Source: Campylobacterota bacterium (GTDB taxonomy: Bacteria > Campylobacterota > Campylobacteria > Campylobacterales > Nitratiruptoraceae). Taken from it: DNA of 35,857 bases. Position numbers and translations under genes: made by a program. Each line of letters starts with the position of its first letter. Position 1 is the first letter of the stretch. The stretch lies in contig JAADDW010000046.1 in the NCBI GenBank assembly GCA_013153715.1, positions 1 through 35,857 of the forward strand, written 5' to 3'. The notes under the pieces were generated by a model. That model was not told the DNA's origin and made no database searches. It saw nothing but the letters and a program-made list of their open reading frames with translations. Of the stretch, positions 8,186-23,700 are shown in pieces.

Positions 8186-8963
8186 GGGAGACCTCCGGGA
8201 GCCCCTCAAAATCTGTAGGGTTGGCAGTAACGGGGGTGACAGAGATAAACCCCGCCTTCACCGCATCAAAATCGCTCCAATACTCCCCTCCCGCCTCCGG
8301 ACGCCACTCCAGAGGGTGGAGACCGATCCACCAATACTCCTCCCCCCGAGGATTTCTATGGACATGGGCATCATTTCCGTAGTAGCGGTAGCCCGCCTTG
8401 GTCACCTTGAACCCTCTGCACCGTTCCGGCGGAAGGGGAGGGACATTGATATTGAGGTAGCTCCTCTCCCTGAGGGGGATCTCTCCCCGGAGCATCTTGA
8501 TCGCCACCTCCCGAGCGGCCCTCTGGGCAAGGGCGTACCCCACCTCCAGCTCCACCTGGGCGCAGTTGTGGTTACAGACCTGGGAGACGGCGCAGGCCGG
8601 AATTCCGTGGAGAACGGCCTCCAGGGCGGCATTGGCCGTACCGGAATAGGTAATATCCTCCCCCATGTTGGCCCCCCTGTTGATACCGCTCAAAACCAGA
8701 TCCGGCCTCACTCCATCGGCATAGAGGGCGTGGAGAGCTAGGTAGATGGCATCTGTCGGCGTTCCATCATCTATCTTGTAGAAGTCGTCATCTATCTCCA
8801 CAAAGCGGAGGGGGCGGGTCAGGGTGAGGCTGTGGCCACAGGCACTCTTCTCCAGGGCAGGGGCGACAACGAGGACCTCTCCCAAATCTTTGACCGCTTC
8901 GACCAGAGCCTTCAGACCCGGAGACTCAAAGCCGTCATCGTTGGTGACTAAAATCTTCTTCAT
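8175..8963 (-). CDS. surE: 5'/3'-nucleotidase SurE
   Basis: This 262-residue protein starts with the invariant SurE sequence ILVTNDDGFESPG, followed by SACGHSLTLTRPLR, the substrate loop IDDGTPTDA, and LVLSGINRGANMGEDITYSG. These are the metal- and phosphate-binding motifs of the SurE family. The enzyme dephosphorylates nucleoside 5'- and 3'-monophosphates in the cytoplasm and is linked to stationary-phase survival. The length is normal. Its ATG overlaps the stop of the AEC transporter as ATGA. Finding surE next to a ThiF-like gene and near lpxB and greA matches what I recall of Campylobacter gene order. Confidence 0.95.
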   Translation of the reverse strand: MKKILVTNDDGFESPGLKALVEAVKDLGEVLVVAPALEKSACGHSLTLTRPLRFVEIDDDFYKIDDGTPTDAIYLALHALYADGVRPDLVLSGINRGANMGEDITYSGTANAALEAVLHGIPACAVSQVCNHNCAQVELEVGYALAQRAAREVAIKMLRGEIPLRERSYLNINVPPLPPERCRGFKVTKAGYRYYGNDAHVHRNPRGEEYWWIGLHPLEWRPEAGGEYWSDFDAVKAGFISVTPVTANPTDFEGLPEVSRAF

Positions 8964-9868
8964 CGGAAACCTCCCACAATTTCGATATAGAAGGGAAGCA
9001 GAGGGAGAAAGAGGAGAGATGTAATGAAGATGAGGGCTGTGACAGTCAGCTCCTTACAGCGGTAGAGGGCCGCCAAATTGACATTGGCGACGGCTAGGGG
9101 CATGGCCAGCTCCATAAAGAGGACCCCTTTGGCCAGCCCCTCGATGGAGAGGCTCTGGAGGACCAGATAGGCCAGGGCGGGGAGGGCTATAAATTTGACG
9201 AAGGAGACCGAAAAGGCCAACTTCAGATCAATATGGGAGAGTCTGATCCGAGCCAGATAGACTCCGAAGATAATGAGCTGGAGGACAATGGCCGTGTAGG
9301 ACCCCATCTGGAGGAAGAGGTCAAACTCCCTCTCCGGCCTAAAACCTTGGGCACTGAGGATAAGGGCGGCAAGGGCAAACCAGAGGATCGGGAGCTTGAG
9401 GGTGTTGACCATCGAATCCCGAACGCTGAAGCTCCCCCTCGAATAGAAATAGGCCCCGACGCTATAGACCATGAAGACATTGGCCAGGTTGACTATGGTG
9501 GTGTAGGGGAGGGAGGCCTCTCCGAAGAGGGCGAGACCGAGGGGGACCCCAAGATTTCCTGTGTTTCCTATGACCGAAGCCACCGTGAAGATCGACCGAT
9601 CCTTAGGGTCCGAAAAGAGCCTCTTTCCTATAAGGAAGTTGGCCAGAACAACGGCGAGGGAGATGAGGAAGAAGATGATGGGAGCCACGACCAGATCGAG
9701 ATCGAGGGGCCTCTTGAGGAGCCCCCAGAAGGTGAGGAAGGGCTGGAAGATATAGACCGAGAGGAGGACCAGAGTCCTCTCATCGATCCTCTCCCGAAAC
9801 CACTTTTTAGCCAGAAATCCGATGGCGATGAAGAGATAGACAAAAAAGACCGCCTTAAAACTCTCCAT
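8960..9868 (-). CDS. AEC-family (auxin efflux carrier-like) transporter
   Basis: This 302-residue membrane protein has ten hydrophobic segments in two five-helix halves. The family-typical N-G dipeptide region appears as VIGNTGNLGVPLG near residue 105, and a second half motif as AMPLAVANVN near residue 255. AEC proteins are secondary transporters, often of organic acids such as malate; the substrate here cannot be told. ATG 9868 follows GGAGG by seven bases and is preferred over the TTG at 9874. It overlaps lpxB by 14 nt and surE by ATGA, so it is embedded in the operon. Confidence 0.85.
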   Translation of the reverse strand: MESFKAVFFVYLFIAIGFLAKKWFRERIDERTLVLLSVYIFQPFLTFWGLLKRPLDLDLVVAPIIFFLISLAVVLANFLIGKRLFSDPKDRSIFTVASVIGNTGNLGVPLGLALFGEASLPYTTIVNLANVFMVYSVGAYFYSRGSFSVRDSMVNTLKLPILWFALAALILSAQGFRPEREFDLFLQMGSYTAIVLQLIIFGVYLARIRLSHIDLKLAFSVSFVKFIALPALAYLVLQSLSIEGLAKGVLFMELAMPLAVANVNLAALYRCKELTVTALIFITSLLFLPLLPFYIEIVGGFR

Positions 9869-10968: not shown

Positions 10969-11460
10969 ATGGAAAACAAAGAACCTATGACAGAGTATGG
11001 ATACAGAAAGATAGAGAGGGAGTTCAATCTCCTCAAAGAGGAGCGGCCCAAAGTGGTTGAGGAGATTGAGCGGGCCAAGGAGCACGGAGACCTTCGGGAG
11101 AATGCCGAATACCATGCGGCCAAGGAGCGGCTCGCCTTCATCGATGCCCGACTTACCGAACTGGCCGATCTCCTTGCAAGGGCCCAGATCATCGATCCCA
11201 GCAAACTCCCCCACAACCGAGTAAGTTTCGGTTCCACAGTGAAGCTCCTCGACATCGAAGAGGATGAAGAGATCGAATACACAATAGTCGGGGCCACCGA
11301 GAGTGACCCGGAGCATGGCCTCATCTCCTACAACACCCCCCTAGCCAGGGCCCTCCTCGGAAGGGAGGAAGGAGAGGAGATTAGGGTCAAACTCCCCAAG
11401 GGGGAGATCGATTTTGAGATACTGGAGATCTCCTATAAACCGATAGAGTTCAAAAGATGA
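10969..11460 (+). CDS. greA: Transcription elongation factor GreA
   Basis: This 163-residue protein has the two GreA domains: an N-terminal coiled coil (residues 1-75) with EHGDLRENAEYHAAKERLAFID, which holds the acidic tip (D, E) that enters the RNA polymerase secondary channel, and a C-terminal FKBP-like domain ending with ALLGREEGEEI. GreA stimulates cleavage of backtracked transcripts. ATG 10969 is used; a second ATG at 10987 is possible. The stop overlaps the argC start as ATGA. The adjacency of greA and lpxB is common in this phylum. Confidence 0.96.
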   Translation: MENKEPMTEYGYRKIEREFNLLKEERPKVVEEIERAKEHGDLRENAEYHAAKERLAFIDARLTELADLLARAQIIDPSKLPHNRVSFGSTVKLLDIEEDEEIEYTIVGATESDPEHGLISYNTPLARALLGREEGEEIRVKLPKGEIDFEILEISYKPIEFKR

Positions 11461-12461
11461 GAAGAGCATCGATAGTAGGGGCATCGGGATTTACAGGGCT
11501 GGAGCTCATCAAACTCCTCCTCAACCATGGGAAGATGGAGATTGTCGGACTCTACGGCAGTGAGGAGGGGGCCATCGAGAAGCTCTACCCCGGACTGGTG
11601 GGGGTCTTTGAAATGGAGATCGAGAAAGTGGATCTGGAGAAGATCGCCCGGACCAGCGATATAGTCTTCCTCGCCCTCCCCCACAAGAGCGCCATGGAGG
11701 TAGCCCGCCCCCTGCTGGAACAGGGAGTCATGGTAGTCGATCTCTCAGCGGACTACCGATTGAAGCGGGAAAACTACGAGGCCTTCTACACCCGCCACAC
11801 CGACCCCGAGAACCTCAAAAAGGCTATCTACGGTATTCCCGAGATCTGGAGGACGGAGATTGAGAAGGCCCAGCTGGTGGCCAATCCGGGATGCTATCCG
11901 ACGGCGGCCCTCCTGGCGGCTATCCCCTTCCTCCCCTATATCGATTTCTCTGAGAGGATCGTTATCGATGCCAAGAGTGGAGTCAGCGGAGCGGGGAAAA
12001 AGTGTGGCCCCAAGAGCCACTTCGTCACCATCGACGAAAATATATTTGCCTACAACCCCCTCAAACACAGGCACGCCATCGAGATCAAGGAGAAGCTGGA
12101 GCTCCTGGGCAGAGAGCCCCTCCACATCGATTTCGTTCCCCACCTCATACCGATAGATCGGGGTATGCTGGTGAGCCTCTACCTCACCCTTCGGGAGCCT
12201 GTGGACCCTCTCCAACTCCTGAGGGAGTTTTACGGAGAGGAGCCCTTCATCAGAATTAAAGGGGAGCCTGTCGATGTCAAGAGCGTAGCGGGAACCCATT
12301 TCTGCGACATCTATGGCCAGTGCGAGGGGAGGAGGCTCTTTCTCACCAGTGCCATCGACAACCTCCTCCGGGGGGCTTCCAGCCAAGCTGTCGCCAATGC
12401 CAATCTCATGTTAGGTTTGGAGGAATATCTTGGACTCCCAAAAATCCCCTATATCCCTTAA
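11457..12461 (+). CDS. argC: N-acetyl-gamma-glutamyl-phosphate reductase
   Basis: This 334-residue enzyme reduces N-acetylglutamyl phosphate with NADPH in arginine biosynthesis. The nucleotide-binding loop VGASGFTGLELIKLL is at the N-terminus, the catalytic cysteine lies in ANPGCYPTAALLA (near residue 145), and KSGVSGAGKK plus the histidine-containing VPHLIPIDRGM follow, all as in ArgC. The length is usual. It overlaps greA by 4 nt and the next gene by 32 nt, so the three genes are translationally linked even though their functions differ. Confidence 0.95.
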   Translation: MRRASIVGASGFTGLELIKLLLNHGKMEIVGLYGSEEGAIEKLYPGLVGVFEMEIEKVDLEKIARTSDIVFLALPHKSAMEVARPLLEQGVMVVDLSADYRLKRENYEAFYTRHTDPENLKKAIYGIPEIWRTEIEKAQLVANPGCYPTAALLAAIPFLPYIDFSERIVIDAKSGVSGAGKKCGPKSHFVTIDENIFAYNPLKHRHAIEIKEKLELLGREPLHIDFVPHLIPIDRGMLVSLYLTLREPVDPLQLLREFYGEEPFIRIKGEPVDVKSVAGTHFCDIYGQCEGRRLFLTSAIDNLLRGASSQAVANANLMLGLEEYLGLPKIPYIP

Positions 12462-13185
12462 AGATGGGGCCCTCTTCGTCGCCGATGTCCACTACCAGCG
12501 GGGCGTACGCCAGGAGCTAGAGAGACTTCTGGACTGGTTGCTCCACGACCCCCCTCCCCAACTCCTCCTAATGGGGGACATCTTCGATCTTCTGGTGGGA
12601 ACTGTCCCCTCTACCGTGGAACGGAATAGGGAGATGGTCGAGAAGTTGAGGGAGATAGGGGAGCTGACAGAGTGCCACTATTTCGAGGGAAACCACGACT
12701 TCAATCTGGCCTCCATCTTCCCCAATATGCGGATCTATCCCAGAGAGGAACAGCCTGTCGTCTTCACCACCAACTCCAAGAGGGTCGCCCTCGCCCACGG
12801 AGACCTCTGTGTCGGGAGCTGTTACGAGTATTACTGCAACTGGATCCGCAAGGAGAAGATCCTCCAGCTCCTCAATATCTTCAATGTGGGGGACTGGATC
12901 GTGGAGCGGGTCCTCCGATCGACAGCGGAAAAAAATCTCTGCCGCTCCATAGAGCGTTTCGACTACATCGTCGAGAGGAAATTGGCCACCTACCCCGATG
13001 TGGACCTCATCATCGAGGGCCACTTCCACCAGAACTACTTTACCAAGAGGTATATCAACCTCCCCGCCTTCGGGTGCACCCGTTCGGTCATTCTCTACAA
13101 AGATCGGCGGTTGGTGGAGCTCTGCGTTATAGACCGCAACAGACGGCAGTCAAAGTTGAAACGGAACTCGGCCTCCTTGAGATAG
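12430..13185 (+). CDS. LpxH-like metallophosphoesterase (UDP-2,3-diacylglucosamine diphosphatase family)
   Basis: This 251-residue calcineurin-fold protein shows the full set of metal motifs: ADVHY, GDIFD, GNHDF, a mid-protein AHGD and a late GHFH. They match the LpxH/UDP-2,3-diacylglucosamine diphosphatase group, which produces lipid X for LpxB; lpxB is about 1.5 kb away. It lacks enough recognised LpxH-specific sequence for me to assign the symbol. The start is an unusual TTG at 12430; GGAGG at 12419-12423 stands six bases before it and no in-frame ATG is available near the DVH motif. The 3' end overlaps the convergent IS1595-like gene by 91 nt. Confidence 0.82.
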   Translation: MDSQKSPISLKDGALFVADVHYQRGVRQELERLLDWLLHDPPPQLLLMGDIFDLLVGTVPSTVERNREMVEKLREIGELTECHYFEGNHDFNLASIFPNMRIYPREEQPVVFTTNSKRVALAHGDLCVGSCYEYYCNWIRKEKILQLLNIFNVGDWIVERVLRSTAEKNLCRSIERFDYIVERKLATYPDVDLIIEGHFHQNYFTKRYINLPAFGCTRSVILYKDRRLVELCVIDRNRRQSKLKRNSASLR

Positions 13186-20359: not shown

Positions 20360-22480
20360 ATGGATAACCTTCGACCCTTCTCCCGCCCCAGGAGAGCTCT
20401 CCTCTCCTTACTCCTCGGGATAGTTACCCTCTCTTTCCCTACCTTCGGTCAGAGTACCCCACAATCAACGGAGGGGGAGTGTCGGGAGCTCTTTCCAGAG
20501 CATAGCTTCGGAGAGTGGAAAAATGTGAGGGCCTTCGCCGCCTTGCGGGAAGATGGGACCGTCACCACTTGGGGCTACAAACCGTTTGGAGGGGATAGTA
20601 GCCTTGTGGCCGACCAGCTCACCAATGTCAAAAAGATCTACTCTACAGCCCAAGCCTTCGCCGCCCTCAAAGATGATGGAACTGTTGTCACTTGGGGGGA
20701 TAGAGAGAACGGTGGCGACAGTACGGAGGTGGCAGACCAACTCATCCATGTCAAAGCTATCTACTCTACTGGAATAGCTTTTGCCGCCCTGAGAGAAGAT
20801 GGGACCGTCGTCACCTGGGGGAGAAAGAGATACGGAGGAGAGAGCAAAGAAGTAGCCCAACTTCTGGGCCATGTGAAAGAGATATTTTCGACACAGACAG
20901 CTTTCGCGGCCCTTAAGGAAGATGGAAGTGTCATCACTTGGGGGAGAGATTACTATGGAGGAGATAGTCGGTCCGTCTCCCATAAGCTGACCAATGTGGT
21001 GAGAATCTACTCTACACGGGGGGCCTTTGCCGCTCTCAAGAGGGATGGAACTGTTGTGACCTGGGGAGATCCCGCCCAGGGAGGGGATAGCAGTAGTGTA
21101 GCCCATAAGCTGACCGATATTGTGGAGATCTTCTCAACGGGGAGAGCCTTTGCCGCCCTAAAGAGAGATGGAACTGTCGTCACTTGGGGAGGGAATGGAC
21201 TCTTCGGAGGGGATAGCAGTGCTGTAGCCAGCGAACTCACCAATGTTGTCAAAATCTTCTCCAATACAGGGGCCTTCGCCGCCCTGCGGAAGGATGGGAG
21301 TGTCATTACCTGGGACGGAACATACCGCTTCTTCTCCCAGGAGGGCTATAAGGAGTATCAGGAGGATCTCAAGAAGAGGCTCACCAATGTGGTGACCATC
21401 TTCTCCACCTCTGGCGCCTTTGCCGCCCTCAAGAGAGATGGAACCGTTGTTACCTGGGGCTATCCAATGGACGGAGGAGACTCTTCCAGAATCCAGGATG
21501 AGCTCTACAATATCAAAACCATCGCCTCCACGACAGATGTTTTCGCCGCCTTGCGGGGAGATGGAACTGTCCTCATCTGGGGAGCCGGAGACATAGCCTT
21601 CAAGTGGCTCACCAATGTCAAAAAGATCTACTCTACAGCCCGAGCCTTCGCCGCCCTCAAAAATGATGGAACTGTCACCGCAATCCATTGGGATAGCTGG
21701 GATACTGGGTCCCCATCCCAATTCTCCTACCTCAACGAGGAGGAGGCTACCCACATCGTCAATATCTTTCCCAACCTCTGCGACAAAGAGTACCACCTCA
21801 CCGAGAAGCTCTCCTCAAACACCGACGGAGCCCTCTGTATTCAGAAGATTACCCACGCCTACAATCCCAAAACGGGGGAAGAAAGAGACTTCCCCACCCC
21901 TTGCCATGTGCCCGAAGGGTGGATCCAGGGATACCCTCCCCGAGAGGGTTCTGCCAAACCCCAGAAAGAGAAGGAGATCTTCCTCAACAGCGATAAAGAG
22001 GCTCTGAGGGAGTACCTCCTCTCCTCCCAATACCCCTTTGGAGAATCGGGGATCTTCCTCCACTACGATTTTGAAGAGACCGATCCTATCTACGACTGGG
22101 TCTTCGTCACCTCTGGCCTCGTCTATCAGTTCCACGGGAAGGAGGCGACAAGGAAAAATATTTTCGGCTGGAAAAAGCTGGAGTCAAAGTATAACGACGA
22201 CGGCACACTCTCCATCCTAGACAGAGGTGAATATCGACCCCTCTCCCTCCATTCCAATCCCTGGGTCATGGTCAGATTGGACGACTGGGACCTCGATGGA
22301 GACCGCCGTTTTGACTGGCTCCTCTTCAGACCCCCTCAACAGAGCCCCAAAGGGTACACAACCTCCATCTTCAAACTGGACGGCATCACATCTACAGGAG
22401 AATTCAAATACCTCCCCCTCTCCGGTCTCAAAGTCTATCCCGTGGGAAGAAAGGAGTACATCTTCAAACCTACCCCCTAG
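20360..22480 (+). CDS. Secreted RCC1-like repeat protein with C-terminal Asp-Trp modules
   Basis: This 706-residue protein has an N-terminal signal peptide (about residues 1-31). Residues 58-428 contain nine repeats of usually 41 residues with core AFAALK.DGTVVTWG....GGDSS and LTNV.KI.ST, then a tenth partial one. The pattern is that of RCC1-like beta-propeller blades. Repeat 6 is 42, repeat 7 is 48 and repeat 9 is 35 residues long. The C-terminal part has two copies of a short module: residues about 565-612 (YDWVFV...GLVYQF...FGWKKL) and 636-690 (FDWLLF...FKLDGI...GEFKYL), shared with proteins at 32133 and 34162. ATG follows AAGGAG. The ligand and function are unknown; an exported surface or adhesin-like protein is my inference. 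Confidence 0.85.
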   Translation: MDNLRPFSRPRRALLSLLLGIVTLSFPTFGQSTPQSTEGECRELFPEHSFGEWKNVRAFAALREDGTVTTWGYKPFGGDSSLVADQLTNVKKIYSTAQAFAALKDDGTVVTWGDRENGGDSTEVADQLIHVKAIYSTGIAFAALREDGTVVTWGRKRYGGESKEVAQLLGHVKEIFSTQTAFAALKEDGSVITWGRDYYGGDSRSVSHKLTNVVRIYSTRGAFAALKRDGTVVTWGDPAQGGDSSSVAHKLTDIVEIFSTGRAFAALKRDGTVVTWGGNGLFGGDSSAVASELTNVVKIFSNTGAFAALRKDGSVITWDGTYRFFSQEGYKEYQEDLKKRLTNVVTIFSTSGAFAALKRDGTVVTWGYPMDGGDSSRIQDELYNIKTIASTTDVFAALRGDGTVLIWGAGDIAFKWLTNVKKIYSTARAFAALKNDGTVTAIHWDSWDTGSPSQFSYLNEEEATHIVNIFPNLCDKEYHLTEKLSSNTDGALCIQKITHAYNPKTGEERDFPTPCHVPEGWIQGYPPREGSAKPQKEKEIFLNSDKEALREYLLSSQYPFGESGIFLHYDFEETDPIYDWVFVTSGLVYQFHGKEATRKNIFGWKKLESKYNDDGTLSILDRGEYRPLSLHSNPWVMVRLDDWDLDGDRRFDWLLFRPPQQSPKGYTTSIFKLDGITSTGEFKYLPLSGLKVYPVGRKEYIFKPTP
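20618..20685 (+). repeat. 68-bp near-identical internal repeat, copy 1
   Basis: This 68-bp stretch inside the RCC1-like gene (end of repeat 1 and start of repeat 2) matches 21608-21675 at 66 of 68 positions, much closer than the other repeats. This suggests recent duplication or gene conversion. Confidence 0.85.
21608..21675 (+). repeat. 68-bp near-identical internal repeat, copy 2
   Basis: This is the partner of 20618-20685, at the junction of repeats 9 and 10 of the same gene, in direct orientation. The differences are one A/G in CCCAAGCC against CCCGAGCC and one G/A in AAAGATG against AAAAATG. Recombination between the copies would remove 990 bp in frame. Confidence 0.85.
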
Positions 22481-22659
22481 CGGATCGGGAGAGCTCTCCC
22501 CCCGCCCAGAAGGAAAACACCATCCCACCATCGCACCAGGGGAATATTCAACTACTCTCCTACCACCACTTCCAGTTGTGATTGAGAACTCTCCCATTTG
22601 AATTTCCACCCACAGCGGGGAACTTCCACTCCTTTAACCCTTTTCCCATTAAAAAAACG

Positions 22660-22688
22660 ATGGCTCATAGCCGGATATGGAATGCAAC
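22660..22688 (+). repeat. 29-bp direct repeat, copy 1
   Basis: This 29-bp unit starts ATGGCTCATA and ends GGAATGCAAC, and is identical to 22733-22761. It has an internal GGCT-cat-AGCC mini-hairpin. Read on the minus strand it starts GTTGCATTCC. Confidence 0.85.
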
Positions 22689-22732
22689 TCTACTTTAAAA
22701 GAGAAGGGAGAGTTTGGTTTTTTTGAGTCTCA

Positions 22733-22761
22733 ATGGCTCATAGCCGGATATGGAATGCAAC
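22733..22761 (+). repeat. 29-bp direct repeat, copy 2
   Basis: This is a perfect second copy of 22660-22688; 44 bp of unrelated sequence lies between them. Repeat and spacer lengths are CRISPR-like, but there are only two copies and no cas genes nearby. Confidence 0.85.
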
Positions 22762-22789
22762 CCTCCGAAAATTGGGGCTTCCGAAGGAC

Positions 22790-22820
22790 TTTTGGACCGG
22801 ATGGTCCAAAAATTTTTTTT
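22790..22820 (+). terminator. Rho-independent terminator, plus strand
   Basis: TTTTGGACC pairs perfectly with GGTCCAAAA around a GGAT loop (22790-22811), followed by A and eight T residues (22813-22820). It would end plus-strand transcripts from the RCC1-like gene, 310 nt after its stop codon. On the minus strand there is no T tract after the stem, so it acts in one direction. Confidence 0.85.
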
Positions 22821-22886
22821 CGTCCAAAATGGCTCGGAACAGCGGAACAATGGGCTTTAAGAGAGCTTTTGTTTACTTTGCACACA

Positions 22887-22915
22887 ATTATAGCTTTTTC
22901 TAGGAAAATTGTCAA
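22887..22915 (-). promoter_or_regulatory. Perfect consensus sigma70 promoter with no gene behind it
   Basis: On the minus strand TTGACA (22915-22910) and TATAAT (22892-22887) are separated by exactly 17 bases. Both hexamers match the consensus fully, which no other promoter in this window does. Transcription would run leftwards through the terminator hairpin sequence and the two 29-bp repeats, then antisense to the 3' end of the RCC1-like gene. No minus-strand gene follows, so it probably makes a noncoding RNA. Confidence 0.7.
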
Positions 22916-22992
22916 AATTGGCCCTCCGTGTGCATAGTTGAGAAAGGGATCTCTCCAGCTATAGAGACATTTTCTGTCTGCCTCGATGGGTT

Positions 22993-23700
22993 TCAGAATG
23001 TATAGACAATGGAACCCTTTGTTATGGTATCAATCTTCCTCTTGTTTCCAGGAGGAAGGTTATCATACTTGAGCTCAAAGGAGAGTTTGAAATGGAAGGA
23101 ATCGACGATCCAGAGTTTCAACTTGGAGAGCCACTGACTCTCCAGATCCCTCCGTTCATCTATGTTTTCTATAAAGGAGAGTTTCGTCTCAAAACTGTTC
23201 TTCTTGGTAAATCTGTAGAAGTACCTCACCTCCCCTTTGAGATAGTTGAAATTCTCCCCTCCCCCCTTGGTATAGTTGTTACGCCTGAAGAGGTAACCGA
23301 GGAGGAGATCCAATCTTCCCCCTGAAGCTGTGTGGAAACGGTGCCCCAGACCGGGGGAGATATTGTATTGCTGATTATACCCTCGAAAGGTATTTCTGAG
23401 AAAGGAGAACTGGGAGTAGAGATAGCGATCCCTATCTATGTAGTGGTAGATGTCCAGCTGGGAGCGGTAGCGTTCGCTACTCTTCTTTCCGCTCTTGGTG
23501 CTGTAGAGAATATCCGTTTTCAATTTTACCCTGTTGTCCCTGTCAATTCTGTAATCTATCCGATAGGCGGTGGTGAGGGAGGTGACATTGCTGTTTCCTG
23601 TTGTCCCAAAATAGCCTAACTCCACCTTCTGCTCTACCTTCGCCTCTCCCCAGATGAGAGAGGGGAGCAGGAGAGAGAGGAGCACTCTAACGGGTCGCAT
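22993..23700 (-). CDS. DUF481 outer-membrane beta-barrel protein
   Basis: This 235-residue protein has a signal peptide (cleavage around residue 19, after WGEA) and then alternating amphipathic strands typical of DUF481 (YdiY-like) barrels: VELGYFGTTGNSNVTSLT, LKTDILYSTKSGKKSSERYR and a final phenylalanine after VYT, the usual outer-membrane insertion signal. Function is unknown. It overlaps the upstream DUF302 gene by 14 nt, so the two are coexpressed. Its A+T content and use of AAA/AAG are higher than in most of the window. Confidence 0.82.
   Translation of the reverse strand: MRPVRVLLSLLLPSLIWGEAKVEQKVELGYFGTTGNSNVTSLTTAYRIDYRIDRDNRVKLKTDILYSTKSGKKSSERYRSQLDIYHYIDRDRYLYSQFSFLRNTFRGYNQQYNISPGLGHRFHTASGGRLDLLLGYLFRRNNYTKGGGENFNYLKGEVRYFYRFTKKNSFETKLSFIENIDERRDLESQWLSKLKLWIVDSFHFKLSFELKYDNLPPGNKRKIDTITKGSIVYTF

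Follow-up and report, generated by a model that had tools for sequence, protein, structure and literature searches.

The exact consensus sigma70 promoter found on the minus strand of the window (the whole stretch of 35,857 nucleotides that was analysed) lies in a 180-nt stretch which, judged by its sequence, is a CRISPR leader, and the locus that it precedes is, on the same grounds, a CRISPR array with one spacer. A preliminary description had taken this promoter to be an orphan; what it transcribes is most probably a normal precursor of CRISPR guide RNA. It can be put forward with high confidence that the locus is a chromosomal one-spacer mini-array with a full-length leader, predicted to make pre-crRNA and to be open to new spacers. 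This reading is based on the presence of the same repeat in arrays on contigs C3 and C11 and at the edge of contig C8, and on leader copies of 96-97% identity, with an identical promoter, that abut the repeat on C8 and C11. It is further based on the genes for Cas1, two Cas2 and Csx1 that adjoin the C11 leader copy and on a type I-B set on contig C48. CRISPR leaders normally carry the main promoter of the array together with integration-site signals (PMC8616872). The features are listed in Table 1.

Table 1. Features of the one-spacer CRISPR locus, with positions in the window.
Feature	Position	Strand	Remarks
Inverted heptamers TGCACAC/GTGTGCA around the promoter	22879-22885 and 22928-22934		weak operator lead
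CRISPR leader, about 180 nt	22762-22941	minus	96-97% identical copies abut the repeat elsewhere
Consensus sigma70 promoter, TTGACA-17-TATAAT	22887-22915	minus	predicted start near 22880
Terminator-like hairpin with T tract	22790-22821	plus	9-bp stem, 4-nt loop, then ATTTTTTTTC; faces the array
CRISPR repeat 1, complete, 35 nt, GTTGCATTCCATATCCGGCTATGAGCCATTGAGAC	22727-22761	minus	identical to the repeats of C3, C8 and C11
Single spacer, 38 nt	22689-22726	minus	spacers of C3 and C11 measure 35-42 nt
Terminal repeat, matching the first 29 of 35 nt before it diverges	22660-22688	minus	3'-truncated

The promoter is the only match to TTGACA-N17-TATAAT in the window (spacings of 15-19 scanned), and no match was obtained in 100 dinucleotide-preserving shuffles of the window, with none expected by chance; the exact consensus reported earlier is thereby confirmed. 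The genome has 12 perfect sites in 1.5 Mb, six of them ahead of tRNA loci, one ahead of hsp20 (small heat-shock protein), one ahead of clpB and four in CRISPR leaders. The hsp20 and clpB genes were identified from the translated sequence without a family search. Its presence ahead of the tRNA loci (6/12), hsp20 and clpB shows that the perfect promoter is indeed associated here with genes for which high expression is expected, and the proposed link of the perfect consensus to highly expressed stable RNA genes holds in that half of the sites precede tRNA loci. The CRISPR leaders here thus share a consensus promoter with tRNA genes of the same genome. The perfect promoters of the hsp20- and clpB-like genes (L068, L071, position 1501) have similar spacers, ATTGGCTAAAAT and ATTGACTAAAAT. 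The inverted heptamers were rejected as an operator, because comparable pairs occur about 3.8 times per kb in the window and the pair is not significant alone.

The orphan status of the promoter did not hold, since the genome has three further copies of its leader. Positions 22762-22940 are 97% identical to positions 37-214 of C8 and 96% identical to positions 5645-5823 of C11, and both of these copies abut the same repeat. The promoter-side 81 nt of the leader are 100% identical at the end of contig C26 (L018:15320-15401), where the copy is cut by the contig end. The four copies have a common 5' start near TCAAC[T/C]ATGCACAC with unrelated flanks, and the 29 bases of the promoter are identical in all four. 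A conserved leader carrying a promoter is accordingly found beside the first repeat. Given the copy at the end of C26, the assembly may lack one or more further arrays. Nothing on point was found in the literature searched regarding identical leaders dispersed within one genome.

The preliminary description predicted a noncoding antisense RNA. As predictions, the strong promoter and the non-coding nature of the RNA stand, but a CRISPR leader followed by pre-crRNA fits better than an antisense RNA. It is highly improbable that the transcript serves specifically as an antisense RNA against the RCC1-like gene at its 3' end: its direction fits and no minus-strand terminator was found before 22480 in a terminator scan of 22300-23100, but the promoter-leader unit is also located beside unrelated genes in three other places and is always accompanied by the CRISPR repeat wherever the assembly continues. 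With no such terminator found, transcription of the pre-crRNA may continue toward the RCC1-like gene; the antisense extension into the end of this gene that had been suggested is thus possible, but would be incidental. A covariance-model search against Rfam, named earlier as a check, gave no match at the gathering threshold and nothing above the cut-off with permissive thresholds. The view that the RNA is not tmRNA, SRP RNA or RNase P RNA agrees with the rejection here of all three, for which neither Rfam nor ARAGORN gave a match.

Both 29-bp repeats noted earlier were confirmed, at 22660-22688 and 22733-22761 of the plus strand with a spacing of 73, but they are CRISPR repeats, and the second belongs to the 35-nt unit 22727-22761. 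The 35-nt and 29-nt repeats with one 38-nt spacer between them, and the spacers of 35-42 nt on C3 and C11, agree with the pattern of CRISPR arrays, in which near-identical repeats of about 25-40 nt alternate with unique spacers of similar length. A whole-genome search showed that the repeat core recurs on C3, C8 and C11. The C3 array, which is cut by the contig end, has six repeat copies and five resolved spacers (36-42 nt), the C11 array has three complete repeats, one degenerate repeat and three spacers of 35-42 nt, and C8 begins inside one repeat copy. In the C3 and C11 arrays, too, the repeat farthest from the leader diverges, at the same end as in the terminal repeat of the window; divergence of the last repeat is usual in CRISPR arrays. 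The terminal repeat with the T tract just below 22660 was rejected as a terminator, as it has a 4-bp stem only and folds no better than shuffled sequences. Leader homology within one genome can reveal single-spacer arrays. A supposed orphan regulatory RNA is here corrected to a CRISPR locus of a kind that a minimum-repeat cut-off could miss.

The GGACC hairpin described earlier is also real, with its 9-bp stem at 22790-22811. On the plus strand it reads TTTTGGACC-GGAT-GGTCCAAAA, followed by ATTTTTTTT, and looks like an intrinsic terminator directed against the array. No other terminator-like site was found in 22300-23100; with 1.1 such sites expected there by chance, finding one is not significant in itself. 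The folding z of the hairpin is -2.4, and the C11 leader copy has one mismatch in the stem.

The spacer is unique in the genome, with no match elsewhere when up to three mismatches are allowed. No exact 25-nt match was found in IMG/VR, no significant match among phage sequences and no match among plasmids, and two spacers from other arrays were likewise without a match. Spacers from poorly sampled habitats often have no target match, which decides nothing here. The missing protospacer and the single spacer count against a functional array, and a loss of function is possible. The locus could then be a relic, either what remains of an array after the loss of other spacers or a duplicated leader and repeat that failed to grow, and its transcription would have no consequence. 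Such a relic would be a CRISPR array just as in the preferred explanation, the one difference being whether it still functions; it is a possible but rather unlikely alternative, suggested by the one spacer, the truncated terminal repeat and the lack of a known target, and opposed by an intact leader, promoter and first repeat and by the identity of the promoter with that of the other leader copies. Single-spacer arrays with a regulatory use are known in principle and the promoter is strong, so a crRNA-like RNA with a host gene, not an invader, under its control was also considered. This is very unlikely; a genome search for full-length matches to the spacer with three or fewer mismatches, which found none elsewhere, counts against it, although regulation may work through partial matches.

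Cas genes are present in the genome on C11 and C48, some of them beside the repeat that the window carries. On C11, divergent from the leader and array, there are genes for Cas1, an unknown protein of 249 aa (here called X) and two Cas2 in tandem, and beyond these a CARF-HEPN Csx1 (L020:1796-3172). The Cas1 belongs to PF01867 (3.6e-38), and the E, H and D residues expected to be catalytic are invariant in the alignment. The order Cas1, X (about 248 aa), Cas2, Cas2 is kept at L020:3262-5559 (C11), L041:9104-11152 and L042:8761-10806. In two genomes from the same taxonomic order, close relatives of the Cas1 (45-49% identity) are accompanied by X and paired Cas2 and adjoin CRISPR repeats that differ in sequence from the repeat of the window. 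In genome G158 (L041), two long arrays with related repeats at 345-2117 and 11249-12804 flank a doubled cas1-cas2-cas2 locus with csx1. Protein X is 28-30% identical between genomes; searches of Pfam, PADLOC, NCBIfam and PDB gave nothing significant for it, and IMG/VR yielded no relative. No Cas1 relatives were confirmed in GTDB-220 contigs, and the literature searched had nothing on point regarding tandem cas2. The two different tandem Cas2 genes suggest a Cas2 heterodimer.

The type I-B set on C48 includes Cas6, the only one detected in the genome, Cas8b, Cas7, a Cas5-like ORF as putative Cas5, Cas3, Cas4 and Cas1b. The ends of C48 (L019), 1-208 and 8874-9081, are 208-bp inverted copies that are 93% complementary, perhaps two facing leaders broken by assembly. 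RAMP (PF03787) and Cas10 (TIGR02578) profile searches of the genome found no type III effector, and Csx1 seems to be without its usual partner. As candidate effector for the repeat of the window, only the I-B complex on C48 was found. Counting against an assigned effector are the Csx1 without detected RAMP or Cas10 and the I-B operon, which may have arrays of its own.

As a working one-spacer array, the locus would be transcribed from near 22880, and about 119 nt of the resulting pre-crRNA would be leader. Cas6 would cut within the repeat, leaving the 5' handle ATTGAGAC on a crRNA with the 38-nt spacer, so that the predicted crRNA begins with ATTGAGAC followed by TCAAAAAAACC. The crRNA would be loaded into a Cas effector, for which only the I-B complex on C48 was found. 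The leader-repeat junction (22761/22762) could accept new spacers from Cas1-Cas2, probably the C11 set, which adjoins the same leader, and the plus-strand terminator in the leader may stop transcripts opposing the array. It is a speculative and improbable extension that the leader and repeat spread together through the genome and so give rise to empty or one-spacer arrays, which would be served by the unusual Cas1-X-Cas2-Cas2 acquisition cassette, with possible recognition of this leader by the cassette.

The leader and repeat were not found in the 21 other genomes of the family that were searched, so the conservation in sister genomes that had been proposed as a check was not seen. The exact repeat has no match in GTDB-220 contigs. 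The gene order from DUF481 to CTP synthase and on through two further genes is conserved in six sister genomes, and the RCC1-repeat gene is not beside this block in the sister-genome stretches read; with the conserved block on one side and the RCC1-repeat gene on the other, the array is placed at the edge of the block. The mini-CRISPR arrays of the Sulfolobales viruses SPV1 and SPV2 likewise have 1-2 spacers, a host-like leader with a promoter and no cas genes alongside (PMC6858448), and the array could similarly have been brought by a virus or plasmid. This origin has little probability given that the window array, in contrast to those of SPV1 and SPV2, lies on a chromosomal contig, between conserved genes (DUF481, CTP synthase and further ones) and the RCC1-repeat gene, and that the exact repeat is absent from IMG/VR contigs.

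Compared with known repeat families, the 35-nt repeat aligns end to end with RF01373 (CRISPR-DR60; 22727-22761, minus strand), but membership was rejected, the score of 18 bits (E 2.1) being far under the cut-off of 45. Although it differs from chromosomal CRISPR arrays in having one spacer, no adjoining cas genes and a leader present in at least four copies, the locus resembles such arrays (with a type I-B/III-like repeat) in its leader promoter, repeat, spacer, degenerate terminal repeat and genomic cas genes.
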